Made by a program: the position numbers and the translations under genes. Of a DNA stretch of 64,000 bases, positions 13,449 to 28,240 are shown one piece after another. Position 1 is the first letter of the stretch. Each line of letters opens with the position of its first letter. The DNA is from Pseudooceanicola sediminis (GTDB lineage Bacteria > Pseudomonadota > Alphaproteobacteria > Rhodobacterales > Rhodobacteraceae): the NCBI RefSeq assembly GCF_003575965.1, contig NZ_QWJJ01000011.1:1-64000 (forward strand), read 5' to 3'. The notes below the pieces were generated by a model that saw only the letters and a program-made list of their open reading frames with translations, ran no database searches and had not been told where the DNA came from.

Positions 13449-14750
13449 TCAGCCGCGATAGCCGAACTGGCGCGGCAACCAAAGCGAGATGTCGGGCACC
13501 AGCGTGATCACCAGCAGGGCGATCAGCAGCGCGATCAGGAACGGCAGCACCTCTCGGATGATCTTGTTCAGCGAACAGCCCGAAATCCCGGCCATCACGA
13601 ACAACAGCAGCCCATAGGGCGGCGTGATCAGCCCCAGCATGATGTTGACCACGCAGACGATGCCAAAGTGCACCAGATCGATACCAAGCGCGTTGGCCGT
13701 CGGGATGAACACCGGCACGATCACCAGCAGGATCGTCGTGCCCTCCAGCAGGCACCCCAGCAACAGCAGGATCACGTTGACGATCAACAGGAACGCCATC
13801 GGTGACAGGTCGAACCCGCCCAGCCATTGGCTCAGCATCGTCGGCACGTTCTCGATGGTGACGACATAGTTGAACACCAGCGCCCCGGCGATCAGCATCC
13901 CGATCGACGACGTTGTACGCGCGCTGGACAACAGCGACTGATAGATCGACCCAAAGCTGACGCTGCGGTACAGGATGGCCGACACCAGCAGCGCATACAG
14001 CGCCGCGACCGCCGCGGCCTCGGTCGGGGTCGTTGCCCCACCATAAATCCCGCCCAGCAGCACGATGGGCATCATCAGCGCCGGAAACGCCTTCAGCGTC
14101 ACACCGGGCAATTCGCGCACCGGCACCGGCTTTTCCACCGGAAAGTTGCGGCGCTTGGCCGTCGTCAGGATCAACGCGATCTGCATCGCGCCCATCAGCA
14201 GCCCCGGCATCACCCCCGCCAGAAACAGATAGCCGATCGAGGCATCCGAGACGAGCGCATAGATCACGATGGGAATGGACGGCGGGATGATCGGCCCGAT
14301 CACCGCGGTCGATGCCGTCAGCGCCGCGGCAAAGGCGGGCGGGTACTTGCCCCCCTCGGTCATCATCTTCTGCATCATCTTGCCCGTGCCCGCGGCATCC
14401 GCGATGGCCGACCCGGACATGCCGGCGAAAATGATGCTCTGCCCGACATTGACCAGCGCCAGCCCACCGGGAAACCGCCCGACAAAGGCATTGCAAAACG
14501 CCAGCAGGCGCAACGTCATCGACCCGGAGTTCATCAACTCTGCGGCAAGGATGAACAGCGGCACCGCCAACAGGATATAGCTGGAAAACAGCCCGTTCAG
14601 CAGTTGTTCGGCCGCCGTGCCCATATCCAGGCCCGACAGCATCAGGTACAGGATGGACGACGCGATCATCGAATGGCCGATCGGCAGGCCCAGCAGGCTC
14701 AGCAGCACGATCGAAATGATGCTCAGCGCAAAGGGATCCAGGCCCATCAT
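13449..14750 (-). CDS. dctM: TRAP transporter large permease (DctM type)
   Basis: This is the large membrane subunit of a tripartite ATP-independent periplasmic transporter, driven by an ion gradient. It has 433 residues and about twelve hydrophobic segments. Typical DctM features include PLFILAAELMNSGSMTLRLL, the SGSAIADAAGTGK motif, IGPIIPPSIPIVIYAL and GLITPPYGLLLFV. It overlaps dctQ by 4 bases and is the last gene of the operon that begins with the shikimate dehydrogenase at 21181. The substrate is inferred from neighbours to be quinate, shikimate or their dehydro forms. Confidence 0.92.
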   Translation of the reverse strand: MMGLDPFALSIISIVLLSLLGLPIGHSMIASSILYLMLSGLDMGTAAEQLLNGLFSSYILLAVPLFILAAELMNSGSMTLRLLAFCNAFVGRFPGGLALVNVGQSIIFAGMSGSAIADAAGTGKMMQKMMTEGGKYPPAFAAALTASTAVIGPIIPPSIPIVIYALVSDASIGYLFLAGVMPGLLMGAMQIALILTTAKRRNFPVEKPVPVRELPGVTLKAFPALMMPIVLLGGIYGGATTPTEAAAVAALYALLVSAILYRSVSFGSIYQSLLSSARTTSSIGMLIAGALVFNYVVTIENVPTMLSQWLGGFDLSPMAFLLIVNVILLLLGCLLEGTTILLVIVPVFIPTANALGIDLVHFGIVCVVNIMLGLITPPYGLLLFVMAGISGCSLNKIIREVLPFLIALLIALLVITLVPDISLWLPRQFGYRG

Positions 14751-15256
14751 TGCAGTTCCTCCTCGCGGGTTTCAACCTGGCCCCACTTGCCGCTGACAGC
14801 GCCAAGGAACAGCCAGGCGTAGCGGATCAGCACCGCCACCGCGAACACGATGTAAATCGAATAGACGTAGTCATAGCGGATATCGAGGTACGAGGTATCC
14901 TGCACCTTCATGAAGGTGACATAGTCCCAGACCGCCGGCAGCGAATAACCATAGAGAAACAGCAGCGCCGCCGCGGCAAAGACTGTCATGACCCGCCGGG
15001 TCCGGCGACCGACCATCGCCAGGATGAAGTCAAAGCGGATTTCCTCGCTTTCGCGCACAACAAAGGCCGCGCCCCATAGCACGATCCAAAGCCACATCAG
15101 GATCGTCAGCTCCGATGCGCCGCCCACCGGCATGTTGAAAAGATAGCGGAAGGCCACCTGCACGATGAACGCGCCGAACATGACGGCCAGCATGATGGCG
15201 GCGATATTCTCGGCGCGCTGGCGCAGCCAGTGACCCAATTTCACAAGTTTTTCCAC
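14747..15256 (-). CDS. dctQ: TRAP transporter small permease (DctQ type)
   Basis: This small membrane subunit has 169 residues and four hydrophobic segments, with the characteristic run GGASELTILMWLWIVLWGAA and the following ESEEIRFD. It overlaps dctM by 4 bases. It lies 69 bases after the end of the first binding-protein gene. Together with DctM it forms the membrane part of one TRAP transporter that can be served by two binding proteins encoded just upstream. Confidence 0.9.
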   Translation of the reverse strand: MEKLVKLGHWLRQRAENIAAIMLAVMFGAFIVQVAFRYLFNMPVGGASELTILMWLWIVLWGAAFVVRESEEIRFDFILAMVGRRTRRVMTVFAAAALLFLYGYSLPAVWDYVTFMKVQDTSYLDIRYDYVYSIYIVFAVAVLIRYAWLFLGAVSGKWGQVETREEELQ

Positions 15257-15325: not shown

Positions 15326-16309
15326 TCACATCGCGTTGATACGTTCCAGCATTCCCTCCGGCCAGTCGCTGGAGAGGTCGGAGTCGAGGTACATCTTCTG
15401 CGCATAGGCCCGGAAGGCATCGACATCCGGGGTATAGATCTTCAGGCCCTGTTCCTCGAAGGAAGACGCAAGTTCCTCTTCGCGCTTGAGGTGCTCTGCG
15501 GTGCTCCAGGCGATGGCTTCGTCTGCCGCCGCCTCGAACGCGCTGCGATCCTCTTCGCTCATCTCGTCCCAGACCTTCTGCGAAATCACCAGGAGGTCGT
15601 AGCCAACCAGATGAGAGGTTTGCACGATCTGTTTCATGACCTCGTAGAACTTCATGTTCTCGACGTTCGGCAGCGGGTTGTCCTGGCCGTCGATGGCCCC
15701 GGTTTGCAGGCCGGTATAGACCTCGGCATAGGCCATCGGCGTCGGGTTCGCACCAAGCGCCTTGCCCAGGAACTGCCATGCGTCACCGCCCGGCATCCGC
15801 AGTTTCACGCCAGCCATATCCTCGGGCGTGTTGATCTCCTTGTCGATCCGCAGACCGACCTGACGCGTGCCGAAATAGGTCGGCCCCAGGATATGGATGC
15901 CCAGCTGATCTTCGGCCATCGCCTTCATCTCGGCACCGGCATCGCTGGCAAAGAACGCCTTCAGATGCTCCGCGTCGCGGAACAGATAGGCCGATGTCAG
16001 GATCGAAAAGGCCGGGATCTGCGTCGCGATATCCTGCGGCGAGACGTTGCCCATCTCAAGGTTGCCACGCTGGATCGCGATGATCTCGGTCGTCTGCTTG
16101 AACAGATTGCCGCCATAGTACAGCTGCATGTCCGCGATGCCCGAGACCTTTTCGGCCAGCATCTTCATCATGTCGGCGCGAATGTCCTGCTCGGAAAACA
16201 CGGCCGAAAAGCGCAGCGTCGGCTTGTCCTGGGCCATCAGCGGCGTGGCGACGCCCAGCATCAGCGCCGCACCGGCGACCGCGCCCATAAGGGTTCTGCG
16301 ATTGATCAT
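15326..16309 (-). CDS. dctP: TRAP transporter binding protein, copy 1 (DctP type)
   Basis: This periplasmic binding protein has about 327 residues with an N-terminal export signal (MINRRTLMGAVAGAALMLG). It shows the DctP signatures: INTPEDMAGVKLRMPGG carries the conserved arginine that clamps a carboxylate, and AEVYTGLQTGAIDGQDNPL is the second typical stretch. The start at 16309 gives correct spacing to the GGGAGG site; further in-frame ATG codons just upstream are too close to it. Its last 150 residues closely match the protein encoded at 16426-17412, so the two arose by tandem duplication. Substrate is likely an aromatic-pathway carboxylate, by context. Confidence 0.88.
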   Translation of the reverse strand: MINRRTLMGAVAGAALMLGVATPLMAQDKPTLRFSAVFSEQDIRADMMKMLAEKVSGIADMQLYYGGNLFKQTTEIIAIQRGNLEMGNVSPQDIATQIPAFSILTSAYLFRDAEHLKAFFASDAGAEMKAMAEDQLGIHILGPTYFGTRQVGLRIDKEINTPEDMAGVKLRMPGGDAWQFLGKALGANPTPMAYAEVYTGLQTGAIDGQDNPLPNVENMKFYEVMKQIVQTSHLVGYDLLVISQKVWDEMSEEDRSAFEAAADEAIAWSTAEHLKREEELASSFEEQGLKIYTPDVDAFRAYAQKMYLDSDLSSDWPEGMLERINAM

Positions 16310-16425
16310 TTTCATTCCTCCCATTTTCAACAGTGACATACTTTCTCCAATTCGTATGACATTGTTCGTTTTGTGTTACATTTTGATGGGGCCACGTAAA
16401 GCCGCCGCCCCATCCTCTTCCTCGC

Positions 16426-17412
16426 TTAAAGCGCGTTGATCTGCTCAAGCATTCCCTCGGGCCAGGCCTCGGACATGTCCGAATTCAGGTACTGCTCCTG
16501 TGCGTAGGCGCGAAAGGCGTCCACGTCGGGGGTATAGACCTTCAGGCCCTCACCTTCGAAAAAGCTCACAAGCTCTTCTTCTTGCTGCAAATATTGCTCG
16601 GTCGACCAGTCGAACGCCTTGCTGGCGACACTGCGCATACGCGCCTGCTGTTCCGGTGTCAGGCTGTCGAACAGGTCGGTCCCGACGATCAGCATCCCGA
16701 AGCCCACATTGTGGCTGGTCAGCACGATCTGGTCCGTCACCTCGTAGAATTTCATCGCCTTGTCGTTCGGCAGGGGGTTGTCCTGGGCATCGATCACGTT
16801 GGTCTGCAGCGCGGTATAGACCTCGGCATAGGGAATCGGCACCGGGTTCGCGCCGATCGCCTTGCCCAGGAACTGCCAGCTGTCGCCACCCGGCATCCGC
16901 ATCTTGATCCCGGCCATATCGGCGGGCGTGTTGATTTCCTTGTCCCCGGCGACGTTCACCTGACGCCGTCCGTAATAGGCGGGGGCCAGAATCTCGACCT
17001 TCAGCTTTTCGCGGGCCAGCGCGCGAAACGTCTCGCCCACTTCGCTGTCAAAGATCCGCTTCAGGTGCGCCGCGTCGCGCACCACGTAGGCCGCGCCCAG
17101 AATATCAAAGGCCGGAACCTGCTGCGCGAAATCCGACGGCGGCAGGATTGCCATTTGCAGGTTGCCGCGCTGAATGGCCACCAGTTCGGTGCCCTGCTTG
17201 ATCAGCGTGCCGTTGAAGAACGGCTTGAACTCGAACTCATCCCCGATCTCCTTGGCGAAAATTTCGGTCATCGCCTGCGAACGCGGCACATCCGGCGTCG
17301 TCACATCCGAGAACATGATCTGCGTCTTGTCCTGTGCCTGCCCGGCCATCGCGGCAACGAATGTCGCCGTCGTGGCCACAGCCAGCGTCCTCAGAATGGT
17401 ATTTAGCGCCAT
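16426..17412 (-). CDS. TRAP transporter binding protein, copy 2 (DctP type)
   Basis: This is a second DctP-family binding protein of 328 residues, with a signal peptide (TLAVATTATFVAAMAGQAQ). A strong GGGAGGAAACC site stands before the ATG. The frame stays open upstream to 18204, but that part is the shadow of the SMP-30 gene. It shares long identical stretches with copy 1, such as YTPDVDAFRAYAQ, QDNPLPN and WPEGMLE. Both keep the carboxylate-binding RMPGGD arginine. Two binding proteins for one permease pair suggest two related substrates, for example quinate and shikimate. Confidence 0.88.
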   Translation of the reverse strand: MALNTILRTLAVATTATFVAAMAGQAQDKTQIMFSDVTTPDVPRSQAMTEIFAKEIGDEFEFKPFFNGTLIKQGTELVAIQRGNLQMAILPPSDFAQQVPAFDILGAAYVVRDAAHLKRIFDSEVGETFRALAREKLKVEILAPAYYGRRQVNVAGDKEINTPADMAGIKMRMPGGDSWQFLGKAIGANPVPIPYAEVYTALQTNVIDAQDNPLPNDKAMKFYEVTDQIVLTSHNVGFGMLIVGTDLFDSLTPEQQARMRSVASKAFDWSTEQYLQQEEELVSFFEGEGLKVYTPDVDAFRAYAQEQYLNSDMSEAWPEGMLEQINAL

Positions 17413-17435: not shown

Positions 17436-18335
17436 TCAGATATCGAACAGATGCTCGGGCACCCCTTGTCCGACGCCTTCGATGGCAAACACACTGCCTG
17501 CCAGCGGCTGCTCGGCCAGTTGCGCCTCGCTCAGAAACTTGAAGGCCGTGGTGACGTAGAGCGTCCTTAGGTCCGGCCCCCCGAAACACAGGCAGGTGGG
17601 GTTGCTGGTCGGCAACGCGATCTCGCGGTCGATCCGCCCATCCGGCGCATAGCGCACCACCTTGCCACCGGCGAAAAAGGCCTGCCACAGACAGCCATCC
17701 GCATCCACGCAGGCCCCATCGGGGCGCTCGCCCGTGGCGCTGTAATCGGCAAGGATTTCGCGTGCGACGGGAACCTCGCCCGCCGCGTCCAGCGTCACCT
17801 TCCAGGTGACATGGCGGCGGGTGTCGGTGAAATACATGTGCCGTCCGTCGGGATCGAAGGCGATGCCGTTCGACACGATCACATCGTCGTAAAAGGCCGT
17901 CATGCGGCCATCGGGATCGACCCGGTACAGATGCCCCAGCCCTTCGCGCAACCCGTTGTCCATCGTGCCAATCCACAGCCGCCCGTGCCGGTCGACCCGG
18001 CCATCGTTCAGCCGCGTCGCCGGATGGCGCTCCTCCGGCGTGGTGGCGAAATGCGTCTCGACCCCGGTGTCGGTGTCCAGTGTCACAAGGTCCAGATCCC
18101 GCGCCAGCAGGCGCGCACCCGAGCGAGTAAAGGCCAGGCTCCCCAGATAGGTGCCGCCCTGCGCCCAGGACCGGGCCTCGCCCGTCTCCGGGTCCAGCTG
18201 CCACAGGCGCGGCTGTTCAATGTCGATCCACCACAGCGAATTGGTCCGCGTGCACCACAGCGGGGTTTCGCCCAATTGCGCCGCGACCTGCTGCACGCAG
18301 GTGATCTCTGGCTGTTTCATCCCTGCATCCTTCAT
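17436..18335 (-). CDS. SMP-30/gluconolactonase-family protein
   Basis: This is a six-bladed beta-propeller protein of the SMP-30/LRE family, 299 residues. It starts with GETPLWCTRTNSLWWIDIEQ, has the metal-site stretch ATRLNDGRVDRHGRLWIGTMDN (about 105-126) and later SNGIAFDPDGRHMYFTDT and PDGACVDADGCLW. Family members are mostly divalent-metal lactonases of sugar acids. Its start overlaps the quiC stop by 4 bases, so it is made with the quinate/shikimate enzymes. A lactone of quinate or a related hydroxy-acid could be its substrate, but that is inference. Confidence 0.82.
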   Translation of the reverse strand: MKDAGMKQPEITCVQQVAAQLGETPLWCTRTNSLWWIDIEQPRLWQLDPETGEARSWAQGGTYLGSLAFTRSGARLLARDLDLVTLDTDTGVETHFATTPEERHPATRLNDGRVDRHGRLWIGTMDNGLREGLGHLYRVDPDGRMTAFYDDVIVSNGIAFDPDGRHMYFTDTRRHVTWKVTLDAAGEVPVAREILADYSATGERPDGACVDADGCLWQAFFAGGKVVRYAPDGRIDREIALPTSNPTCLCFGGPDLRTLYVTTAFKFLSEAQLAEQPLAGSVFAIEGVGQGVPEHLFDI

Positions 18336-20224
18336 CGCCGCGGCACCGCATTTGGCGACATCGACCGACGCTGCGCCGCAATCCGAAATGGCGCATTCGC
18401 CGCGCCATATCCGGCGTAACCACCGCTGCGCTGAACGATCTCGAAAAAGATCCCGTCGCCGAACGGGCGGCCATAAATCTGGAAATAGGCGCCCTGCCCG
18501 TCCTCGTCGTAGAGGATATTTCCGGCCTTCAACCTGACGATCATCTCATCGCCCACACCAAGGCGGGCCGCCACGTCATCATAGTAATTGTCGGGAATAT
18601 GCAGCGGCTCGAACCCGTTCGCGATCAGCGCATCGGCGGTGGCAAAGATATCATCCGTCTCAAAGGCGACGTGCTGCACCGACGAACCAAAGCTGTCGGC
18701 GATGAAGCGACCGGCAAAGGTGCGATGTGTCTCGGCCCCGTTCAGCGTCACCCGCAGCGCACCATCGGCAGATTCAATCGCCTGACTGCGCACCAGCCCA
18801 CCGGGGTCGACCACGTCCACCGTCGCACGTTTTTGCGTCTCGAACAGCGACAGGTAGAACAGCGACCAGGTCAGCATTTCCTCGTAATTCATCGTCTGGG
18901 CGATATGGTCGATCCGCGTCAGCCCGGCGTCGGGCGTCGTGCCCGTATCCTCGACGGGCGAAAACTCGACATCCCAGACCTTTGCAACATCGCTTTTGTC
19001 GTCGATGAAATGCAGCAACCCGCTGCCGACCCCCCGGATCGCCGGGATCTCGAACTCGCCCGGCCCCACCGGCTGGCGGAACGGCGACGCGCCAAGCGCC
19101 TGCGCCCGCTGAACCGTTGCCTCGGCGCTGTCGACCCGCAGCCCGACATCGCAGATATTCATGCCGTGCACCGTATGCGCGCTATGGGCAAAGCCTTCGC
19201 GCTCGGTGTTCAGAACGATGCGGATCTCGCCCTGCTGCCACAACTCGACCTGCTTCGAGATATGCCGCCCGACGCAGCGAAACCCCATCGTGCGCAGCAA
19301 ACGCCCCAGGCTGGCCGCCTCGGCCTCGTCTGCGGCAAACTCGACGAACGACACCCCGTCGGCGCGCACCCGCGGCGGCATGTCCGGCGCGCTCATCGCG
19401 ATCCCCGGCTCCTGCCGCTTCACCTGGTCCATCAGGTAGACAAGCGAGCGGTGCCCATCCAGCGCGATCGCGCCGGGGCTGCCACCACGGAACTGGTCGT
19501 TGAACACCTCCAGGCTGATCGGCCCGTCATAGCCCGTCGCCGCCACCGCGCGCATGAAACCGGTCACATCCAGATCACCCTCGCCCGGCATGTTGCGGAA
19601 ATGGCGCGACCAGTACAGCAGGTCCATCTCGATCAGCGGCGCATCGGCCAGCTGCACGAAAAAGATCTTGTCGCTCGGGATCGAGCGGATGCTGTCGGGA
19701 TCGATCCCGCGACCCAGCGTGTGAAAACTGTCCAGGATAAGGCCGATGTTGGGATGATTGGCGCGCCGCACCACCTCCCAGGCATCGCGGTGATCCCAGA
19801 CGTGCTTACCCCAGGCCAGTGCCTCGAACCCGACGCGCAAGCCGCGTTTGGCGGCGCGCGCGCCCAGCTCTGCAAAATCGCCCGCCATCCGGTCGATCCC
19901 GCCAAGCGCCTCCGGGTGCACCGACGAACAGACCAGCACCAGGTCGGTCCCCAACTCCTGCATCAGGTCGAACTTGCGCTCCATCCGCTCGAAACTGCGG
20001 GCGCGCAACGGCTCCGGCAGGCCCTCGAAATCGCGGAACGGCTGAAACAGCGTGATCTCCAGCCCGTGATCGCGCACCATCTGCCCGACCTCGCGCGGCG
20101 AGGCGTCGAAGGCGATGAAATCCTGTTCGAAGATCTCGATGCCATCGAACCCGGCGGCGGCGATCGCGGCCAGCTTCTCGCGCATGTCCCCGGCGATGCA
20201 GACGGTGGCGATAGAGGTCTTCAT
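18332..20224 (-). CDS. quiC: 3-Dehydroshikimate dehydratase, QuiC type
   Basis: This fused enzyme has about 630 residues and converts 3-dehydroshikimate to protocatechuate. The N-terminal half is a xylose-isomerase-like TIM barrel (about 1-275). Its likely metal ligands lie in GFEALAWG (Glu), LILDSFHTL (Asp), FFVQLAD (Gln) and ISLEVFND (Glu). The C-terminal half (about 290-625) is a double VOC domain like 4-hydroxyphenylpyruvate dioxygenase, with TRIDHIAQTM and VQHVAFETDDIF. The ATG at 20224 is preferred over an upstream one at 20245. No pca ring-cleavage genes are in this window, so protocatechuate must be degraded elsewhere. Confidence 0.86.
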   Translation of the reverse strand: MKTSIATVCIAGDMREKLAAIAAAGFDGIEIFEQDFIAFDASPREVGQMVRDHGLEITLFQPFRDFEGLPEPLRARSFERMERKFDLMQELGTDLVLVCSSVHPEALGGIDRMAGDFAELGARAAKRGLRVGFEALAWGKHVWDHRDAWEVVRRANHPNIGLILDSFHTLGRGIDPDSIRSIPSDKIFFVQLADAPLIEMDLLYWSRHFRNMPGEGDLDVTGFMRAVAATGYDGPISLEVFNDQFRGGSPGAIALDGHRSLVYLMDQVKRQEPGIAMSAPDMPPRVRADGVSFVEFAADEAEAASLGRLLRTMGFRCVGRHISKQVELWQQGEIRIVLNTEREGFAHSAHTVHGMNICDVGLRVDSAEATVQRAQALGASPFRQPVGPGEFEIPAIRGVGSGLLHFIDDKSDVAKVWDVEFSPVEDTGTTPDAGLTRIDHIAQTMNYEEMLTWSLFYLSLFETQKRATVDVVDPGGLVRSQAIESADGALRVTLNGAETHRTFAGRFIADSFGSSVQHVAFETDDIFATADALIANGFEPLHIPDNYYDDVAARLGVGDEMIVRLKAGNILYDEDGQGAYFQIYGRPFGDGIFFEIVQRSGGYAGYGAANAPFRIAAQRRSMSPNAVPRR

Positions 20225-20305
20225 ACGCCCCCCGCCCCTGTGCACCGGACCTGCGCCCGAAATCTGTCCTGTCTCGACATATGCATCCCCCCTGCCATGC
20301 CGCCC

Positions 20306-21181
20306 CTAGTCGGAGGCCAGCAATACGGCCTTCATTTCATCGAGGTCAGGCGCCCGGCCGCTGAACAGCTCAAAGGCGCGCACGGCCTGGTACAGCGCCA
20401 TTCCCGTGCCCGGCAAAACGGCACAGCCCAGGGCGCGCGCCGCGGCCAGCAGCTCCGTCTCGGGCGGGAAATAGACGATATCGGCAACCCATTGACGCGC
20501 CGACAACAACGTCTTCGGCAGCGGGCACCCCGGCAGCTTGGTCATCCCCACGGGCGAGGCGTTGACGATCCCGTCAACCTCGCGGGCCATCGCGACATCC
20601 TCGGCCACAGCGGCGCGCGCCGCGCCAAACCGCGCCTGCAGGATCGCAACCAGTTCCTGTGCCTTGGCCACCTCGGGGTCATGCACCAGCAGCGTACCGA
20701 CACCGGCATCCAGCAGCGCCTGCGCCACCGCGCCACCGGCACCCCCCGCCCCCAGCAGAATGACCCGCGTCAGAACCGCATCGGGCAGACCCAGGCGCAG
20801 ACTGGTCCCAAACCCCCAGTAATCGGTGTTGTGGCCATAGCGGCGGCCATCGCGGAACACGATCGTGTTGATCGCGCCGACCGCCCTGGCCGCTTTGGAC
20901 AGGTCATCGACATGGGGGATCACGGCCTGCTTGAACGGATAGGTCACGTTCAGCCCGTCATACCCCTGCGCCTCTACCTGATCCAGGATCTGGTCGACCT
21001 TGTCCGGCAGCGTCATTTCAAGCGGATCGAGGAAATCATACTGGTACGGCACCCCAAGGGCGCGGGCGGAGGCCATGTGCATCCCCGGCGTTCGCGACGC
21101 GGCGATCCCCTTGCCCAACAGGCCGACGCGGATCTTGCGCAGCCCCTCGTCAAGTGGGTCCTTATGTGTCGCGATTGCCAT
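20306..21181 (-). CDS. Shikimate/quinate dehydrogenase (AroE family, catabolic)
   Basis: This 291-residue protein is of the shikimate dehydrogenase family. The N-terminal substrate domain has GLLGKGIAASRTPGMH, where the usual AroE serine pair is altered, followed by GLNVTYPFKQAVIPHVD with the conserved catalytic Lys, then GAINTIV and GHNTDYWGF. The nucleotide fold begins VILLGAGGAGGAVAQAL, and the C-terminus has LPGTGMALYQAVRAFELF. The changed N-terminal motif and the place at the head of the quiC/TRAP operon suggest a catabolic quinate/shikimate enzyme rather than biosynthetic AroE. Confidence 0.82.
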   Translation of the reverse strand: MAIATHKDPLDEGLRKIRVGLLGKGIAASRTPGMHMASARALGVPYQYDFLDPLEMTLPDKVDQILDQVEAQGYDGLNVTYPFKQAVIPHVDDLSKAARAVGAINTIVFRDGRRYGHNTDYWGFGTSLRLGLPDAVLTRVILLGAGGAGGAVAQALLDAGVGTLLVHDPEVAKAQELVAILQARFGAARAAVAEDVAMAREVDGIVNASPVGMTKLPGCPLPKTLLSARQWVADIVYFPPETELLAAARALGCAVLPGTGMALYQAVRAFELFSGRAPDLDEMKAVLLASD

Positions 21182-21239
21182 GAACGGTGCCTCTCCTCAC
21201 TGCCCGATTGCCTCGGTCAGCCTCTCTCGAATCCACTAT

Positions 21240-21285
21240 TGTTCGAAACGGTTAAAAATGTCAACGTAGTGTTCGAGCCGGTTAA
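21240..21285. promoter_or_regulatory. Paired 16-base repeats, candidate operator of the TetR-esterase
   Basis: TGTTCGAAACGGTTAA (21240-21255) and TGTTCGAGCCGGTTAA (21270-21285) match at 14 of 16 positions and are exactly 30 bases apart, close to three helical turns. They lie in the 212-base spacer between the divergent quinate/shikimate operon and the TetR-esterase gene, so one regulator could control both. Confidence 0.6.
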
Positions 21286-21393
21286 TTTTCTGCATTGCAG
21301 AATGCCGCACGTCGAATTTGCGCGCGGATGACCATCGCGCTTCGCGCCGGATTTGCGTATCAAAGGGGCTGAACGACTACGGGAGGGCAGACT

Positions 21394-23046
21394 TTGGCAG
21401 AAGGTGACGTGGGCGGGTCCGATGGCCCATCGGCGCGGCGCGGTTGGAAACAGAACCCCGAGGCGGTGCGATCCAACATTCTTTCGGTGGCGCGCGATGT
21501 CTTCGTCGCCAACGGCCTGTCCGGTGCAAAGATGGACGAAATCGCGGCACTGACCCGCACGTCCAAGCGCATGATCTACTACTACTTCGGCGACAAGGAA
21601 GGTCTGTACCGGGCCGTCCTGGAAGATGCCTATGCCCGGATGCGCAGCGCCGAAGACAGCCTGGACCTGGATCGCCTGCACCCCGTCGAGGCGCTGCGGC
21701 GCCTTGCCGAATTCACCTTTGAACACCACCGCCAGCAAAAGGATTTCGTGCGCCTCGTGATGGTCGAGAACATTCACGACGGTCGCCACATGTCGAAATC
21801 CGAGATGATCTCGGGCCAGAACTCCTCCGCGATCCGCCTGCTCGATCAGATCTATCGGCGCGGCTGCGACGACGGCCTGTTCCGGCGCGGCCTCAGCGCG
21901 CTGGAATTGCACTGGCACATCTCGGCGATGGCCATCTTCAATGTCTCCAACCGCGCCACGTTCTCGGCGATCTTCGGGGATGACCTGTTCGGCGCCAAGG
22001 GTCAGCAGATGCTGTGCCGTCATGCCGGCGACATGCTGGTGCGCTTCGTGATGAAACCCGGCCTGTCGATCGAAGACAGCGCCACCCCACCCCGCCAGGC
22101 CTTGTCGCAGATCCACCCCGACCTGCTGCGTTTCCTTGACATGTGGCAGGCCAAGGTGTCGGAACTTCCCGCCCACAGCTCGGCTGCCGACCGTCGCCTG
22201 CACATGGAATCGGTGGCGCGCGACATACGGATGCCCACCCCCGAAAACATCGAAACCGACGAAGAACACTGGATCGAGACGATGGGCGGGCCGGTGCGTG
22301 TGCGCATCTTTCGCCACAAGGGCGGCGGCGTACAGCCCGCGCTGGTCTACATGCACGGCGGTTCCTGGGTGCAGGGCAGCCCCGAAAGCCATTGGGACAT
22401 CACGGCCCGCATCGCCTCCTGGAACCGCCAGACCGTGATTTCGGTCGACTACGCCCTCGCCCCTGAGGTCCGCTTTCCCGCCGCCTTCCTCCAGGTCGTC
22501 GCGGTGCTTCGCTGGGTGCACGATCAGGCCCGGGACCTGAGGATCGACCCGGCCCGCATCGCCGTCGGCGGCGACAGCGCGGGGGGCAATCTGGCCGCCG
22601 CAGCCGCGCTTGAATGCCGCACGCTCGGCCTGCCCATCTGCGCTCAGCTGCTGATCTACCCGGTTTGCGATTTCGACATGACCCGGCCTTCCTACGCTGA
22701 AAACCCGGACGGCCCGATGCTCAGCGTCGCGACCTTCCGCGAACAGCGCGCAATGTACCTACCGGAAACCGACGCGATACCGACAGACTACCGACACACC
22801 CCTTTGGCCGCTGAAAGCCACGCCGGCCTGCCGCCCAGCTTTGTCGCCACGGCCCAGTTCGACCCGCTGCGCGACAGCGGCATCGCCTATGCCGATGCGC
22901 TCGACGCCGCAGGCGTGAGGGTGGTCAGGGACACTGGTGAGGGGATGATTCACGGCTATCTGCGCGCCATGGCCTATTGCCCTGCGGCCGAGGCACGGTT
23001 GCGCCGCATGTGCGACTGGCTGGCGCAGATTTATCAACCTTCTTAA
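21394..23046 (+). CDS. TetR-family regulator fused to an HSL-type esterase
   Basis: One uninterrupted 550-residue frame joins two complete proteins. Residues about 25-75 are a TetR/AcrR HTH (MDEIAALTRTSKRMIYYYFG), followed by a helical ligand domain to about 215. Residues about 235-550 are an alpha/beta hydrolase of the hormone-sensitive-lipase family IV: oxyanion motif HGGSW (321-325), nucleophile GDSAGG (Ser395), acid DPLRD (Asp490) and base IHGY (His520). All catalytic positions are present, so the esterase should be active. The start is TTG at 21394, six bases after GGGAGGG. It is divergent from the quinate/shikimate operon. It may regulate that operon and cleave an ester of quinate or shikimate; both roles are inference. 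Confidence 0.88.
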   Translation: MAEGDVGGSDGPSARRGWKQNPEAVRSNILSVARDVFVANGLSGAKMDEIAALTRTSKRMIYYYFGDKEGLYRAVLEDAYARMRSAEDSLDLDRLHPVEALRRLAEFTFEHHRQQKDFVRLVMVENIHDGRHMSKSEMISGQNSSAIRLLDQIYRRGCDDGLFRRGLSALELHWHISAMAIFNVSNRATFSAIFGDDLFGAKGQQMLCRHAGDMLVRFVMKPGLSIEDSATPPRQALSQIHPDLLRFLDMWQAKVSELPAHSSAADRRLHMESVARDIRMPTPENIETDEEHWIETMGGPVRVRIFRHKGGGVQPALVYMHGGSWVQGSPESHWDITARIASWNRQTVISVDYALAPEVRFPAAFLQVVAVLRWVHDQARDLRIDPARIAVGGDSAGGNLAAAAALECRTLGLPICAQLLIYPVCDFDMTRPSYAENPDGPMLSVATFREQRAMYLPETDAIPTDYRHTPLAAESHAGLPPSFVATAQFDPLRDSGIAYADALDAAGVRVVRDTGEGMIHGYLRAMAYCPAAEARLRRMCDWLAQIYQPS

Positions 23047-23092: not shown

Positions 23093-25330
23093 TTATTTCG
23101 ATGCCTCGGGCAAGGCGTAGGCAATCATGTAGTCACCAATCGGCGTCTCCATGAAATGGTGCCCGGTGGCGGCAATCATCACATAGTCGCGCCCGTCCAC
23201 CGAATAGGCGATCGGGTTGGCCTGGCCACCCGCAGGCAGCACGTCCGACCAGACCGTCTCGCCCGTCTTGATGTCGATGGCACGGAACAGGTTGTCCGTC
23301 GCCGCCCCGATAAAGATCAGCCCCCCGGCCGTCACCACCGACCCGCCGTTATTGGGTGTTCCTATGTCAAAAGGCAGCATGGACGGAATGCCGAACGGCC
23401 CGTTATTGCGCGCTGTTCCCAAGGGTTTGTCCCAGATCGTCTCGCCCGTCTCCAGGTCGATCGCGCGGATCCCGCCATAGGGCGGACGCGTGCAGGGCAT
23501 CCCGGTCAGCTCGCTGCGCCAGCCGGCGTTGACGTTGATTGCATAGGGCGATCCCGCCTGCGCGTCACCGGCGCCCTCGGCACCACCTGAACGCTTGGCT
23601 TGCTCATCAATCGGCACCAGCCCCATCTCGTCGGCTTTTTCGCGTGGAATCAGCTGGTTATAGTTGGGAACGTCATTGTAGTTGGCAACGATGACGCCCG
23701 TTTCGGTGTCCACCGCGACCGACCCCCAGTCCGACCCGCCGTTGTACCCGGGGTACTGGATCCACGGCTTGTCTGCCGACGGCGGGGTCATGTAGCCATC
23801 ATAGTTCGCACGGCGGAACTGAATGCGGCACCAGAGCTGGTCAATCGGGGTAAAGCCCCAGCTGTCCAATTCCTGCAACGGCTCCTTGCGCAGGGTGTGC
23901 CAGCTCGAAACCGGTTGGGTCGGAGAGATAAAGTCGGGCTCCACATCGCCTTGCGGCAGATCCGAAACCTCGCCGACCGGGGTCAGCGCCTCGCCCGTCG
24001 CACGATCAAGGATATAAAGATCGCCCTGTTTCGACGGCAACAGGATTGCCGGTGTCCCCTTCCAGTCGATCAGCGTCGGCTGGCTGCCAAGGTCGTAGTC
24101 CCAGACATCGTGGCGCACCGTCTGGAAATGCCAGACCGGCTTGCCCGTCGTCACGTCCAGCGCCACCAGCGAGGTGGCAAATTCATTCTCGGCGTCCGAC
24201 CGGTTCGAGCCGTAGTAGTCGACCGAGGAATTGCCAAGCGGCAGATAGACATAGCCCAATTCTTCGTCCGCGACGGCGGCGGTCCACATGTTCGGCGTTC
24301 CGCGCGTATAGACTTCACCCTCTGGCGGACCGTCGATATTCTGATCCGGCGCGGCCAGATCCCAGGCCCAGGCCAGTTCCCCGGTCTTGACGTCATAGCC
24401 GCGAATGACCCCCGAGGGCGCGTCCTCGGCCTGGCCGTCCTTGACCTGCGCCCCGGTCACAAGGATACCGCGCACGACGACAGGGGGCGCAGTCACCGCG
24501 TACCACCCCGGCACCCGTTCACCGATGTCCTGCCAAAGATCGACGGTGCCATTTTCGCCAAACCCTTCGCAGGCCGCACCGGTGCTTGCATCAACGGCGA
24601 CCAGCTTGGCGTCCAGCGTGCCTTCGATAATCCGCGTGGCGCAGGGTGTTCCCTCGGCCGCGGTCGGGTCGGTATAGGCCGTAACGCCCCGGCATGACGC
24701 GGAATATGGGATCGCCTCGTCCGGCACCCCCGGATCGAAACGCCAGTTTTCCTCGCCTGTCGTGGCACTTATCGAAATCAGCACGTTCTTGGCGGAACAC
24801 ATGTACAGGGCGCCGTTCATCTCGATCGGGGTCGTTTCACCCGCGTATTTGCCAGCAGCCTCCGCACTCGGCATGTCGCCCGTGCGATAAACGAAGGCGC
24901 GTTCCAGCTGGCCGACATTTTCCGGGGTAATCTGGTTCAGCGGAGAGTAACGCGTCGCATTTGAATCCCCCCCGTAAAAGGGCCAGTTCTCGCCCACCTC
25001 GGGCTGCGCCTGCGGCGCTGTTCCCAGCCCGGCATTCGTGGCCTGGTCAGTATCCTCGGCCGCACCTTCCGGTTGGCTCGTCTCGTCGCCTTGGCTCGTC
25101 TCATCTGACGTATCCTGCGGCGCGGCGTCCGGTTGCGCCTGCCCGGCGCTCCCGGTGTCGGTTGCCGAGGTTGTCACATCAGACGACCCCGCGTTCGGGG
25201 CTGTGTCTGCTGGTGCTGCGGCGCTCGGCGCGCTGTCGGTCGATGAGGATGTGGAGGTGTCCTGCGCCAGGATCGGATGGGCCGCGATGAGGGCAAGAGC
25301 GGACGCGGTGCAAAGTGTAAATCGTGTCAT
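23093..25330 (-). CDS. PQQ-dependent dehydrogenase, catalytic subunit (quinate or polyol type)
   Basis: This periplasmic quinoprotein has about 745 residues. A signal peptide covers residues 1-23 (MTRFTLCTASALALIAAHP). It is followed by an unusual acidic Ser/Thr/Ala/Asp/Gln linker of some 80 residues. The eight-bladed propeller then starts near NWPFYGGDSNATRYSPLNQI. Repeated W-motifs such as TGEENWRF, TGKPVWHF and TGETIWDK are typical of membrane glucose/quinate/polyol dehydrogenases. The ATG at 25330 overlaps the membrane-subunit stop by one base. Beside quiC and the dehydrogenase at 20306, quinate oxidation to 3-dehydroquinate is the best guess. A glycerol or polyol substrate, as in Gluconobacter SldA, is the alternative. 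Confidence 0.84.
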   Translation of the reverse strand: MTRFTLCTASALALIAAHPILAQDTSTSSSTDSAPSAAAPADTAPNAGSSDVTTSATDTGSAGQAQPDAAPQDTSDETSQGDETSQPEGAAEDTDQATNAGLGTAPQAQPEVGENWPFYGGDSNATRYSPLNQITPENVGQLERAFVYRTGDMPSAEAAGKYAGETTPIEMNGALYMCSAKNVLISISATTGEENWRFDPGVPDEAIPYSASCRGVTAYTDPTAAEGTPCATRIIEGTLDAKLVAVDASTGAACEGFGENGTVDLWQDIGERVPGWYAVTAPPVVVRGILVTGAQVKDGQAEDAPSGVIRGYDVKTGELAWAWDLAAPDQNIDGPPEGEVYTRGTPNMWTAAVADEELGYVYLPLGNSSVDYYGSNRSDAENEFATSLVALDVTTGKPVWHFQTVRHDVWDYDLGSQPTLIDWKGTPAILLPSKQGDLYILDRATGEALTPVGEVSDLPQGDVEPDFISPTQPVSSWHTLRKEPLQELDSWGFTPIDQLWCRIQFRRANYDGYMTPPSADKPWIQYPGYNGGSDWGSVAVDTETGVIVANYNDVPNYNQLIPREKADEMGLVPIDEQAKRSGGAEGAGDAQAGSPYAINVNAGWRSELTGMPCTRPPYGGIRAIDLETGETIWDKPLGTARNNGPFGIPSMLPFDIGTPNNGGSVVTAGGLIFIGAATDNLFRAIDIKTGETVWSDVLPAGGQANPIAYSVDGRDYVMIAATGHHFMETPIGDYMIAYALPEASK

Positions 25331-25710
25331 CAATAGGTCTGCCTTCTGGAACGGCCGGTCAGTCCGGGGATGCAAATGAGGATCAGGACAAGCACGAGGG
25401 TCGGGGCAACCAGGCGTGGAACCTGCGCCCACCAGTCCGTTCCGACCTCCCAGTAGGCCCAGACGACCGTGGCCAGCCAGATCACCAGGTACAACCAGAC
25501 CGCAGCCATGCTTGCACGGTTTAGCAGCGCCCCGGTCACGATCAGGCCCAATCCGGCCAGCCCGTAATACCAGGATCCGCCAAGAACGATCAGCCAGATA
25601 CCCCCGGCCAGCAATACGGCACCAAAGATCACCAATACCCACCCCAGCACCAGGATCGCCCAGTGGCGTTCCACGGGCGTCCTGGCACTGACAGATTGTG
25701 TCGAAGTCAT
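25330..25710 (-). CDS. PQQ dehydrogenase membrane-anchor subunit (SldB-like)
   Basis: This hydrophobic protein has 126 residues and four or five membrane segments. It matches the N-terminal membrane domain that is fused to the catalytic domain in single-chain glucose and quinate dehydrogenases (LGWVLVIFGAVLLAGGIWLI and later GSWYYGLAGLGLIVTGALL). Here it is a separate gene coupled to the catalytic gene by TGATG. The length and split layout are those of the small subunit SldB of Gluconobacter polyol dehydrogenase. It should anchor the enzyme and hand electrons to ubiquinone. Confidence 0.8.
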   Translation of the reverse strand: MTSTQSVSARTPVERHWAILVLGWVLVIFGAVLLAGGIWLIVLGGSWYYGLAGLGLIVTGALLNRASMAAVWLYLVIWLATVVWAYWEVGTDWWAQVPRLVAPTLVLVLILICIPGLTGRSRRQTY

Positions 25711-26298
25711 GAATTTTCTCCTTTCGCGTCGGAGTTGTCGCGTCGCCCTACGGCACGGTGTCCGATGCGCATGTCTGCGCCAGCCCTAGCTGTCGCTGTG
25801 ATCAAAACGCCTGACCCACGATCAAGGTTCCATGACTTTTCATCGAATGATGCGTGACATCGCAACAGGGTTGGCCCAAGGGGGACCGGCATCGCAGGGT
25901 CATGTCAAAGATAAAGATCACCCCGTAACTCACGTAAATATAAGGACAATGCGTCCTCAAGTCGAACCCGTACCTTCCTGCCAACTTGGGTCAACTGTCG
26001 CACAAAGCGTCGGTGTCGGACAGCGCCCGCCTATACCTGAGTTTTTTACTTGTCTTTCTCCGGGCGCGCTTTCATAAAGCGGCAACACCGGTCTTTTCGG
26101 CTGCGAAACTGCGGCAGATCAGACCTCACGAACCCACGCCAGCCCAGATGTGCAAAAGACTGACAGCGCCCTGCACGACCTTTCGCGGCCCCGATGGCCG
26201 CCCGTCGCAAACCGCCGGCAAGGTCACGCGGAATCCCGCCCTTCTTGCAGCATAGCCAGCGACACGGCACACCCGAAAACAGCAAGAAGAGCCGCCGC
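25711..26298. other. Gene-free spacer, divergent promoters
   Basis: This 588-base spacer lies between the PQQ dehydrogenase operon and the isochorismate synthase gene. I see no credible coding frame. It includes a relatively AT-rich patch around 25900-25960 and a small AGGAC/GTCCT inverted repeat near 25945. It probably carries both promoters; no clear iron-responsive operator was recognised. Confidence 0.5.
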
Positions 26299-27531
26299 AT
26301 GACCCCGTCGCGCCACCGTGTCGCCCCCTCACCCGCCCCGGTCGATCTCTCGGCCCGGACCGCCCCGTTCCTGTTCCAGGGCCCAGACGGCGCAATCGGC
26401 GCCACCGGCACCTTGCACCCCCTGCCACGCGGTCCCTTGGCCACCCTGCCCGACAGGATTTCCCGGGCGATGGAGGGCATGGCCCCCACTGGCCTCATCG
26501 GTGGCGCGCTGCCCTTTGATCGCGACGCCGACGATTGCCTATGGATGGCCGACCAGACCAGCCGCACTCCGATTGCGGCCCGCACTCAGCCTGAAATCGC
26601 CCCGACCTGGACCGTCACGCCAGAACCCTCTGCCGAGGCCTACGCGGAGGCCGTCCAACAGGCCCTCGACCTCATGAAAAACCAGGCCAACCTGCCGCAG
26701 CCGCTCCGGAAAATAGTGCTCGCGCGGACGCTGGCACTTGTCTGCGATCAGGTCATTCCCGTCCCCTCGGTTCTGGCGCGCCTGTGTCAGGATGCCTCTG
26801 TCACGGCCTTTCAGGTCGCCCTTCCCCCGTCGACCGACACGGGCCCCGACACCGTCACGGACACCGCCACGGACACGGACGGGGCACGCCTGCTTGTCGG
26901 TGCATCGCCTGAACTTCTGGTGCGCAAAAGCGGCGCGCAGATCCTGTCGCACCCGCTGGCCGGGTCGGCCAGACGCCGCAGCGATGCGGCACAAGATCGC
27001 GCGGCGGCACAGGCCCTGACAGCGTCGGCCAAGGATCTGCGCGAACATGCCATCGTGGTCGAATTCATCCTCGATACCCTGGCACCTCATTGCACCACGC
27101 TGACGGCGCCGAGCGTGCCGGAAATCACCAGTTCGGCGACGATGTGGCACCTTGGCACACCGATCCGGGGCGAACTGCGCGACGCCGACATGCCCTCGGT
27201 TCAGATTGCCGGGCTCTTGCATCCCACCCCCGCCGTCTGCGGATCGCCCCGCGACCGCGCCGCGCAGATCATCCAACAGCTTGAACCCGTGGCGCGTGAT
27301 TTCTACGCAGGCGCGGTCGGCTGGACCGCCGCCAACGGCGATGGGGCCTGGTACGTCAGCATTCGCTGCGCCGAGATCCAGGGCCGCAGTGCGCGCCTCT
27401 ATGCAGGCGCAGGGATCGTGCCAGGATCCGTGCCCGCCCAGGAGGCCGCCGAAACCGGGGCAAAATTTGCGGCGTTGCTGCGCGCCCTTGGCCTGCCCCA
27501 CGATATGGCCATCCCGACCGATCCGCACTGA
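26299..27531 (+). CDS. Isochorismate synthase (EntC/DhbC type)
   Basis: This chorismate-utilising enzyme has about 410 residues and forms isochorismate. Typical blocks are LRKIVLARTLALV (about 135-147), LLVGASPELLVRKSGAQILSHPLAGSARR, KDLREHAIVVEFILDTL, TSSATMWHLGTPIRGEL, HPTPAVCGSPRDRA and the C-terminal FYAGAVGWTAANGDGAWYVSIRCAEI. The lysine, histidine and glutamate residues of the family active site fall in these blocks. The ATG at 26299 removes an unlikely Arg-rich extension. An isochorismatase gene follows after 52 bases. No 2,3-dihydro-DHB dehydrogenase or DHB-AMP ligase is adjacent, so the end product is unclear. Confidence 0.88.
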   Translation: MTPSRHRVAPSPAPVDLSARTAPFLFQGPDGAIGATGTLHPLPRGPLATLPDRISRAMEGMAPTGLIGGALPFDRDADDCLWMADQTSRTPIAARTQPEIAPTWTVTPEPSAEAYAEAVQQALDLMKNQANLPQPLRKIVLARTLALVCDQVIPVPSVLARLCQDASVTAFQVALPPSTDTGPDTVTDTATDTDGARLLVGASPELLVRKSGAQILSHPLAGSARRRSDAAQDRAAAQALTASAKDLREHAIVVEFILDTLAPHCTTLTAPSVPEITSSATMWHLGTPIRGELRDADMPSVQIAGLLHPTPAVCGSPRDRAAQIIQQLEPVARDFYAGAVGWTAANGDGAWYVSIRCAEIQGRSARLYAGAGIVPGSVPAQEAAETGAKFAALLRALGLPHDMAIPTDPH

Positions 27532-27583
27532 TGTTTCGGCCGACCGACATCGCTGATTGCCGACCCAAGAAAGACACCTGACC

Positions 27584-28240
27584 ATGGCGCTACCGACGAT
27601 CCCTGCCTATGACCTCCCCCAACCCGGCGACTGGCCCGCATCGCGCGCGGCCTGGACACCGCAGACGGATCGGATGGCGCTTCTCGTCCATGACATGCAG
27701 TCGTATTTCTGCGCGCCCTTTGTCCAGGACGCCGCCCCCCTGAAACCGCTCATCGCCAATATCGACCGCCTTGCGCGGGCCGCCCGCGCTGCGGGAATTC
27801 CGGTGTTCTACACGGCCCAGCAGGGCAACCAGCTGCCGAGCGACCGGGGCCTGCAACGCGACCTCTGGGGGCCCGGCATGTCGCGCGATCCGGCACACGA
27901 GGCGATCCTGCCCGACCTCGCGCCGCAGCCCGACGACATCGTGCTGGTCAAGCACCGCTACAGCGCGTTCCAACGCTCCAACCTGCAACATCTGATGCGC
28001 GCCCGGGGCCGCGACCAGCTGATGATCACCGGGATCTATTCGCACATCGGTTGCCTTGCCACCGCATCCGAGGCATTCCAACTGGATATCGAACCTTTCA
28101 CGATTGCCGATGCCCAGGCCGATTTCGACCGCGCCCGCCATGACATGGCGATGTCCTGGGTCGCCTCGGTCTGCGGTGTGGTGCTTGCCACGCAGGACAT
28201 GCTGAACCAGCTCGACCCCGCCCCCGCGCATCGCTCATGA
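27584..28240 (+). CDS. Isochorismatase (EntB N-domain/DhbB type, no carrier domain)
   Basis: This 218-residue cysteine-hydrolase-fold enzyme closely follows the isochorismatase domain of EntB and PhzD. Visible blocks are RMALLVHDMQSYFCAPF (catalytic Asp), GIPVFYTAQQGNQ, DRGLQRDLWGPGM, VLVKHRYSAFQRSNL and MITGIYSHIGCLATA. It should hydrolyse the pyruvyl ether of isochorismate, giving 2,3-dihydro-2,3-dihydroxybenzoate. It ends after the hydrolase domain, so the aryl-carrier domain of EntB is absent. It sits downstream of the isochorismate synthase and is probably co-transcribed. Confidence 0.88.
   Translation: MALPTIPAYDLPQPGDWPASRAAWTPQTDRMALLVHDMQSYFCAPFVQDAAPLKPLIANIDRLARAARAAGIPVFYTAQQGNQLPSDRGLQRDLWGPGMSRDPAHEAILPDLAPQPDDIVLVKHRYSAFQRSNLQHLMRARGRDQLMITGIYSHIGCLATASEAFQLDIEPFTIADAQADFDRARHDMAMSWVASVCGVVLATQDMLNQLDPAPAHRS

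Follow-up and report, generated by a model that had tools for sequence, protein, structure and literature searches.

A TetR regulator fused to an HSL-type esterase opposite a quinate/shikimate operon in Pseudooceanicola sediminis

TetR regulators are normally passive sensors, and a divergent position with palindrome-like operators, similar to the layout considered here, is typical of many of them. An enzyme fold and DNA binding can be united in one chain, as in the bifunctional regulator-enzymes or trigger enzymes PutA, NadR, BirA and the MocR/GntR-aminotransferases. E. coli Aes is an HSL-fold protein that regulates the transcription factor MalT, and the plant receptor GID1 uses the HSL fold to sense its ligand after catalysis has been lost. 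Here we consider a gene (21394..23046, + strand) in a 64,000-nucleotide stretch of Pseudooceanicola sediminis DNA (contig NZ_QWJJ01000011.1; hereafter the window), which encodes a TetR regulator and a family IV (HSL-type) esterase as one protein and stands opposite genes for quinate/shikimate degradation. It differs from PutA, NadR, BirA and the aminotransferase fusions in pairing TetR with a pathway-linked ester hydrolase, and from Aes and GID1 in that the fusion is covalent and the catalytic triad intact, with only its relatives in Alloyangia and Salipiger catalytically broken. Our preferred reading, held tentatively and at a little less than even confidence, is that the protein may be a bifunctional repressor-enzyme whose esterase half makes the inducer sensed by its TetR half.

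Like the TetR_C_29 regulators (nearest solved chain 3npi), the window protein has a helix-turn-helix (HTH) and a regulator domain that can be aligned over its length, but it adds a C-terminal esterase of about 310 residues on the same chain. The triad, HGG and GDSAG are common to it and to HSL/family IV esterases such as EST2 (2hm7, 1evq) and Est8 (4ypv), from which it is set apart by its DNA-binding regulator and by the regulator position of its gene. Two-domain dehydroshikimate dehydratases are described in an excerpt of PMC7442255 for Pseudomonas putida (QuiC1) and Corynebacterium (QsuB); as in the window, they carry an HPPD-like C-terminal part, and the window operon differs from theirs in having TRAP uptake, TetR control and a linked esterase. 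Among the titles and abstracts listed in a search of the open-licence PubMed Central (PMC) literature, none names a TetR-esterase fusion.

The fused gene and its catalytic residues

The gene is a single open frame on the + strand, stop-free across all 550 amino acids from a TTG start. Its HTH (TetR_N, PF00440; residues 29-75, 21478..21618, +) scores 44.7 bits against a Pfam cut-off of 24, and the stretch TSKRMIYYYF in this region is unchanged in 19 of the 21 fused proteins. The helical ligand/dimer domain, assigned by sequence as TetR_C_29 (PF17938; residues 97-214, 21682..22035, +), reaches 139.4 bits (cut-off 26.2). A linker and junction (22036..22113, +) lead into the esterase part (residues 238-550, 22105..23043, +), whose N-terminal segment we take to be the cap-forming segment of HSL esterases and whose Abhydrolase_3 core (residues 317-523, 22342-22962, +) scores 205.6 bits against a cut-off of 25. 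Alignment with EST2 (188 bits; PDB 2hm7) places Ser395 in the GDSAGG motif (codon 22576..22578, +), Asp490 (22861..22863, +) and His520 (22951..22953, +) on chain residues 155, 252 and 282, which are presumably the catalytic triad of EST2. The HSL/family IV signature (HGG, GDSAG, Asp, His) is complete, with an oxyanion motif HGGS at residues 321-324 whose third position is Ser in the window and Gly or Ala in the other 20 fused copies. The initial annotation had described a full TetR HTH and ligand domain followed by a complete HSL-type esterase with this triad, and both the three Pfam domains, all above cut-off, and the EST2 alignment bear it out.

No NCBIfam esterase model reaches its cut-off for the window protein: the LipP1 equivalog (NF058653) gives 260.4 of the required 350 bits and the chloramphenicol hydrolase model (NF033149) 201.3 of 500, and the RutR model (TIGR03613) likewise gives 44.8 of 368. 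PADLOC returned no match, and a defence reading was dropped. A second HSL-type esterase lies elsewhere in the window (59655-60350, -), with 39% identity to the fused esterase over about 240 residues.

Third-position GC is high throughout the linker and the remaining two frames are rich in stops, which makes unlikely a frameshift separating the two parts, a possibility raised in the initial annotation. A frameshift or chimera was also rejected on the layout of relatives: other assemblies contain twenty fusions laid out in the same way, with 48-68% identity to the window protein, some of them on complete plasmids of Sagittula, Alloyangia and Salipiger. The carriers include Maritimibacter sp. ih11, Oceanicola sp. 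S124, P. onchidii, Pararhodobacter zhoushanensis, Sagittula sp. MA-2 and P11, Alloyangia pacifica, Salipiger sp. CCB-MM3 and a Burkholderiaceae bin. In genome sets that overlap, and in most of which few candidates were scored per genome, stop-free full-length fusions were present in 7/23 genomes of the genus, 6/295 of the family (one with two copies), 6/390 of the order and 2/385 of the class (its own and G692, from another family; L and G numbers are our labels for loci and genomes), with the same two among 398 genomes of the phylum. The P. sediminis genome itself (4.44 Mb, 54 contigs) holds one full-length copy. The family search that the initial annotation had proposed thus finds the fusion in several genera, and its neighbours have been mapped on 79 loci (the best 80 of at least 595 stretches). 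Five of the six best plasmid records are annotated as alpha/beta hydrolase fold domain-containing protein and the sixth as NlhH_2 beside a hypothetical protein; the regulator half has been overlooked because these records name the protein by its hydrolase half only. The fusion in the Burkholderiaceae bin (L085:2127-3761), with an operator pair upstream (score 28.2), is either a between-class transfer or a separate fusion event.

Operators and the divergent operon

Two candidate operators without assigned strand, TGTTCGAAACGGTTAAAA (21240..21257) and TGTTCGAGCCGGTTAATT (21270..21287), lie 30 bp apart between the fused gene and the divergent operon. A promoter-like site of that operon, TTGACA - 18 nt - AATAGT (21235..21264, -), is recognised by consensus match only (10/12, with 0.2 such sites expected in the stretch). 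Operator 1 spans the -35/-10 spacer of this divergent promoter, covering its 18 nt to within one base, and operator 2 falls just upstream of TTGACA. Comparison of promoter regions yielded a double site, TGTWC-N5-GGTTAAWT, occurring twice and 30-31 bp apart in most loci; the initial annotation had located the operator at 21240-21285, where this conserved double site is indeed found, save that the second operator ends at 21287. In leave-one-out scoring, for which the pair spacing was set from the same loci, 24/25 matrix loci bearing a shikimate/quinate dehydrogenase (SDH) exceeded all 300 mononucleotide shuffles, as did 2/4 TetR copies without SDH. Among 39 loci outside the matrix, which include Rhizobiales, one Burkholderiaceae bin and TetR genes that are fused, adjacent or lone, 36 scored above every one of 40 shuffles, and the pair score was >25 in 29. 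Exact TGTTC-N5-GGTTAAWW occurs in the 4.44-Mb genome only at the two sites 21240-21257 and 21270-21287, matrix scores >14 within the window are likewise confined to them, and the search for a wider regulon gave three single one-mismatch sites elsewhere in the genome, looser site forms not being sought. The layout is that expected of an autoregulated repressor, and the TetR half is a likely repressor of the quinate/shikimate-degradation genes.

The operon opens with SDH (20306..21181, -; NF009201, 364.9 bits against a cut-off of 235), followed by a 3-dehydroshikimate dehydratase of the QuiC type with the HPPD-like C-terminal part (18332..20245, -; alternative ATG at 20224), for which the QuiC model NF042435 is the best at 701.4 bits, below its cut-off of 1200. 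The two together mark a quinate/shikimate catabolic operon. They are accompanied by an SMP-30/gluconolactonase-like protein (17436..18335, -) and a TRAP transporter comprising the small permease DctQ (14747..15256, -), the large permease DctM (13449..14750, -), which lies outside the esterase-linked subtype discussed below, the solute-binding protein DctP (15326..16339, -) and a second solute-binding protein (16426..17412, -) similar to the TRAP-P of relatives. The position opposite such an operon was therefore rightly recognised in the initial annotation. The two solute-binding proteins share one permease pair, and the nearest solved chain to DctP is 4pf6. Among the papers listed, the literature search gave nothing on this regulator, on a roseobacter quinate TRAP or on the ligand of DctP 15326-16339.

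Esterase, transporter and junction across relatives

A contig profile search with the esterase alignment gave at least 595 stretches, 575/595 of which encode a relative; the best 80 (79 loci) were kept, and the window proteins were mapped onto them to compare neighbourhoods. Since sampling was by similarity and took the best matches only, it underrepresents loci whose esterase is degraded. The esterase may lie directly after the TRAP large permease (TRAP-M) inside the operon, the tetR of the cluster being at another place (Rhizobium alvei, Roseibium, Ahrensia, Oricola, Mesorhizobium, Hydrogenophaga and others), immediately after tetR (most non-fused Rhodobacterales, also Martelella), fused to tetR, or outside this neighbourhood altogether. 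The last group includes nearly all relatives under about 45% identity, as well as L076 and L083, which are second esterase copies in genomes that also carry the fusion; at L048 the esterase stands alone opposite SDH, with tetR on a different contig. The link between the esterase and SDH/QuiC is strong, yet not strict.

Its association with the transporter is closer. In a TRAP-M tree built by a quick method, 33 esterase loci form one esterase-only clade (support 99) and three betaproteobacterial esterase loci a second; lone-TetR loci form two clades (14 and 7), and two more of them join the window. The esterase-type TRAP-M is present at 36/37 esterase loci and at 0/23 loci without an esterase in the stretch, in a count that omits second TRAP copies, L074 (where the operon ends at the contig edge), L222 (unrelated TRAP) and loci without a TRAP-M of >330 aligned residues (e.g. 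L047, L053, L085, L100, L221, L223 and L224). So tight a tie to a single TRAP subtype, spanning two classes, speaks for the import of one particular kind of substrate. The finding also points to a route by which Rhodobacterales and Rhizobiales might take up esters of quinate or shikimate. A chance neighbour is ruled out by the neighbourhood mapping together with the TRAP-M tree, and the connection to quinate/shikimate genes suggested by the initial annotation now reaches beyond adjacency in one genome, since the esterase lies inside the operon in Rhizobiales and tracks the TRAP subtype. A search for an esterase-type TRAP elsewhere in the P. sediminis genome gave the window TRAP-M itself as best match (61%), the next being 43%. 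Alloyangia T6124 carries a plasmid copy of the window-type TRAP (79% DNA identity) adjoining a type II dehydroquinate dehydratase and a pyrroloquinoline quinone (PQQ) quinate/shikimate-family dehydrogenase, neighbours which fit a quinate-type rather than an ester substrate for the window-type TRAP.

A DUF3237 gene is found at 19/55 esterase loci and at 0/32 loci without esterase (duplicates retained), in 17 cases directly beside the esterase (L040, L043, L045, L048, L049, L079, L084, L087-L091, L093, L096, L099-L101). Its product is a candidate enzyme for the acid freed by the esterase. According to PMC12607616, PinX, a DUF3237 protein, shares 42% and 38% identity with PhcG and PhcF, decarboxylases of lignin-dimer catabolism. 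Because of this resemblance a phenolic acyl group would fit the association. The gene association thus hints at a phenolic acid as the other product of the esterase.

The fused copies fall into two clades in both an esterase-part tree (52 rows) and a TetR-part tree (71 rows). Clade I includes the window; clade II, made up of G222, Pararhodobacter and one uncultured copy, is not starred in the esterase tree, and the Burkholderiaceae copy is of uncertain placement. These trees were built on short proteins and omit L075, L080 and L082 (same contigs as G192, G143 and G097), with L051 and L095 also omitted from the TetR tree. In the approximately unbiased (AU) test, a clade uniting the 15 fused rows is rejected for the TetR part (p-AU 0.00015) and not for the esterase part (p-AU 0.45), where L044, L076 and L104, with decayed or missing TetR, were grouped with the fused rows; fused or not fused is here a trait label, and the hypotheses were set after the trees had been inspected. 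A single origin of all fused copies is thus ruled out on the TetR tree and not on the esterase tree, the rejection implying either two separate fusion events or a single one with the TetR half swapped. What is joined here is a TetR repressor and an enzyme tied to the pathway it would control, and the fused copies do not form one clade in the TetR tree.

The junctions record how this may have happened. Six adjacent tetR/esterase pairs were examined, of which three overlap as ATGA, two overlap by 14-17 nt and one is separated by 3 bp. Ten clade I fusions retain the former esterase ATG at the junction, an AGGAGG-ATG type of start inside the fused frame, and 9/10 of these have a Shine-Dalgarno match of >=5 nt, versus 8/282 other in-frame ATGs in the 21 fused frames; the junction rows are related to each other, and L238 and L240, which nearly duplicate L073 and L074, were left out of this control. 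A Glu-rich linker could help to preserve the motif, although it persists despite residue change (KEEA, REGT, EEET). Fusions with an intact junction start could still make free esterase. At the window junction both ATG and Shine-Dalgarno are gone, with only a TTG in place, and G692 and Alloyangia have likewise lost both; the Salipiger junction has a GTG that no Shine-Dalgarno precedes, only the ATG is changed in Sagittula P11 and G1313, and the ATG is lost too in L042, L079 and L085. The intact/lost label changes seven times on the tree of 21 (at least five changes being forced by starred branches), and in several of these lineages the triad is retained. Judged by its start sites, the window esterase is made only attached to the repressor, an obligate fusion, and the distinction between such a fusion and leaky ones with an internal start appears new. 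The opposite decay is seen in L044:8516-8692 (G067), where the tetR part is cut down, and in L104:6877-7453 (Sagittula marina), where it is in two frames; both keep the downstream esterase and its start site.

In the clade nearest to the window (support 96/93), consisting of two strains of Alloyangia pacifica and Salipiger sp. CCB-MM3 (L233:11959-13617, L234:11968-13644, L247:5959-7617), GDGAG replaces GDSAG and VRDY replaces IHGY, so that the catalytic Ser has become Gly and the His Arg, with the Asp kept. The loss is found in three records of two genera, the third being Alloyangia T6124. By these residues the enzyme half is unable to be a normal serine esterase, and a TetR-pseudo-esterase that has lost nucleophile and His appears new. 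The frames nonetheless run to full length, and Abhydrolase_3 is recognised in two of them, at 194 and 197 bits. The ratio of nonsynonymous to synonymous substitution rates (dN/dS) between Alloyangia and Salipiger is 0.32-0.33 for the esterase part and 0.15-0.16 for the TetR part; for the esterase part it is 0.09 between the two Alloyangia strains and 0.10-0.20 in five pairs of active relatives, and the two pairs that include the window protein have values of 0.33 and 0.44, at a dS of 0.8-0.9. Constraint on the pseudo-esterase is weaker, yet the domain looks to be under purifying selection. The window shares with this sister lineage the lost internal start, the lack of an esterase-type TRAP alongside and a long esterase branch, and has kept its triad. 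No further pseudo-esterase occurs among the 10/384 family genomes matching at E <= 1e-100, in which the copies are those already known with the triad; the earlier esterase scan was blind to such proteins, its patterns requiring IHGY or HGG[AG][WF][MV].

Proposed mechanism and its alternatives

On the preferred reading, the TetR half would bind the two operators in the divergent promoter and repress the quinate/shikimate operon, and probably also the fused gene itself, and the esterase half would be an active HSL-type esterase whose substrate is an ester, possibly hydroxycinnamoyl or otherwise phenolic, of quinate, shikimate or a closely related compound. The ester would enter via the esterase-type TRAP and stay silent until cleaved; the enzyme, present at the low level of the repressor, could act before induction and free the ring acid, the likely inducer and first substrate of the operon. 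Basal beta-galactosidase, which makes allolactose, offers a likeness. Fusion would fix the ratio of enzyme to repressor and may release the acid near the TetR pocket, and in a lineage without the esterase-type TRAP the enzyme half seems to drift. Many relatives have this TetR type at the same operator and no esterase there, so that the TetR ligand is most simply a pathway metabolite and not the ester. The initial annotation had the sensor bind or cleave an ester and couple this to induction: the fusion, triad and conserved operator stand, whereas the TetR ligand is more simply a ring acid or pathway intermediate.

The main rival holds that the fusion is neutral, translationally coupled neighbours having been joined by loss of a stop codon with the halves still independent and neither channelling nor allostery involved. 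It accounts for the overlap of five of the six adjacent pairs (three as ATGA, the sixth pair 3 bp apart), for the ten clade I fusions that retain the internal ATG, nine of them with the Shine-Dalgarno match, for a fused label that needs two origins or a domain swap, and for L044 and L104, which keep the esterase with TetR broken or cut down. The internal start is, however, gone in the window and several other lineages with the whole frame kept, a recurrence that suggests benefit, and we regard neutral fusion as plausible and, on balance, doubtful. It is improbable that the esterase half is becoming a ligand-binding sensor, its alpha/beta-hydrolase pocket mainly sensing and catalysis reduced or dispensable. 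The sister lineage, where Gly has taken the place of Ser395 and Arg that of His520 while the frame remains complete, with Abhydrolase_3 scores of 194 and 197 bits and an inter-genus esterase dN/dS below 1, invites this idea, as do the window's long esterase branch, HGGS oxyanion motif and lack of an esterase-type TRAP. Yet the window keeps its whole triad, the dead enzyme is confined to those three records, and its dN/dS exceeds that of the five active pairs, so that relaxed decay is also possible; the pairs with the window reach 0.33 and 0.44, at high dS.

Still less probable is a pathway esterase for another bond, e.g. a lactone (quinide) or an unrelated ester, tied to the operon by shared regulation. 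HSL esterases are broad in substrate, the operon includes an SMP-30 lactonase, no NCBIfam esterase cut-off is reached and some esterase loci are without SDH and QuiC; the tight tie to one TRAP subtype across two classes argues the other way. A sequencing or assembly artefact joining two genes is barely credible, since many independent genomes, and also complete plasmids, share this layout. The relatives may form a series from operon esterase through tetR-coupled esterase, leaky fusion and obligate fusion (the window) to TetR-pseudo-esterase. We think it rather unlikely that these are steps from a catabolic enzyme to the sensory part of a transcription factor, the window esterase being an inducer-making sensor that controls the DNA binding of its own chain. 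A series running from separate genes to a dead-enzyme fusion would make the recruitment of enzymes as sensors testable in bacteria and in small proteins.

Several observations weigh against a repressor-enzyme that makes its own inducer. Fusion alone is no proof of coupling, because several fused genes keep the start for a free esterase. In Rhizobiales and at two Rhodobacterales loci (L051, L101) the esterase lies in the operon, apart from the repressor; L079, L096 and L101 have TRAP, TetR and esterase in a stretch that lacks both SDH and QuiC, and at betaproteobacterial esterase loci SDH/QuiC are mostly distant or missing. The window is itself the single exception among the 37 esterase loci to the TRAP-subtype link, its TRAP-M being nearest (83% identity) to that of the lone-TetR locus G365, and L226, one of the 23 loci without esterase, belongs to a genome with an esterase elsewhere (L225). 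The window's esterase branch (0.6) is the longest of clade I, and five columns conserved at >=95% are altered in it, third after L043 (10) and L042 (7) and tied with L083 and L102. The double-operator score fails at G282 in the leave-one-out set and at L087, L096 and L220 among the further loci. The Alloyangia and Salipiger fusions stand away from the quinate operon, after a peptide MFS transporter gene; a single operator-like site (20.3) precedes the Alloyangia fusion, and upstream of the Salipiger one there is none. As for the phenolic, hydroxycinnamoyl-type ester put forward by the initial annotation, the DUF3237 association at 19/55 esterase loci would fit it, whereas a search of the P. 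sediminis genome found no DUF3237 gene, and only L040 and L079 of the 17 fused loci have one.

The other neighbour of the fused gene is a PQQ glucose/quinate-type dehydrogenase (23093-25642, -; TIGR03074, 797.6 bits, just below cut-off). In this region (23093-25710, -) the membrane part is apparently a separate 126-residue gene (25330-25710), hydrophobic by eye and without a Pfam match, and the catalytic part (ATG at 25330) opens with a signal-like, low-complexity stretch; the enzyme, normally a single membrane-bound chain, may be split here. Further along (26194-28240, +), a chorismate-binding enzyme identified by Pfam is followed by a gene resembling isochorismatase by eye, possibly a pair of catecholate siderophore genes, and the pair recurs at L059:699-2302.

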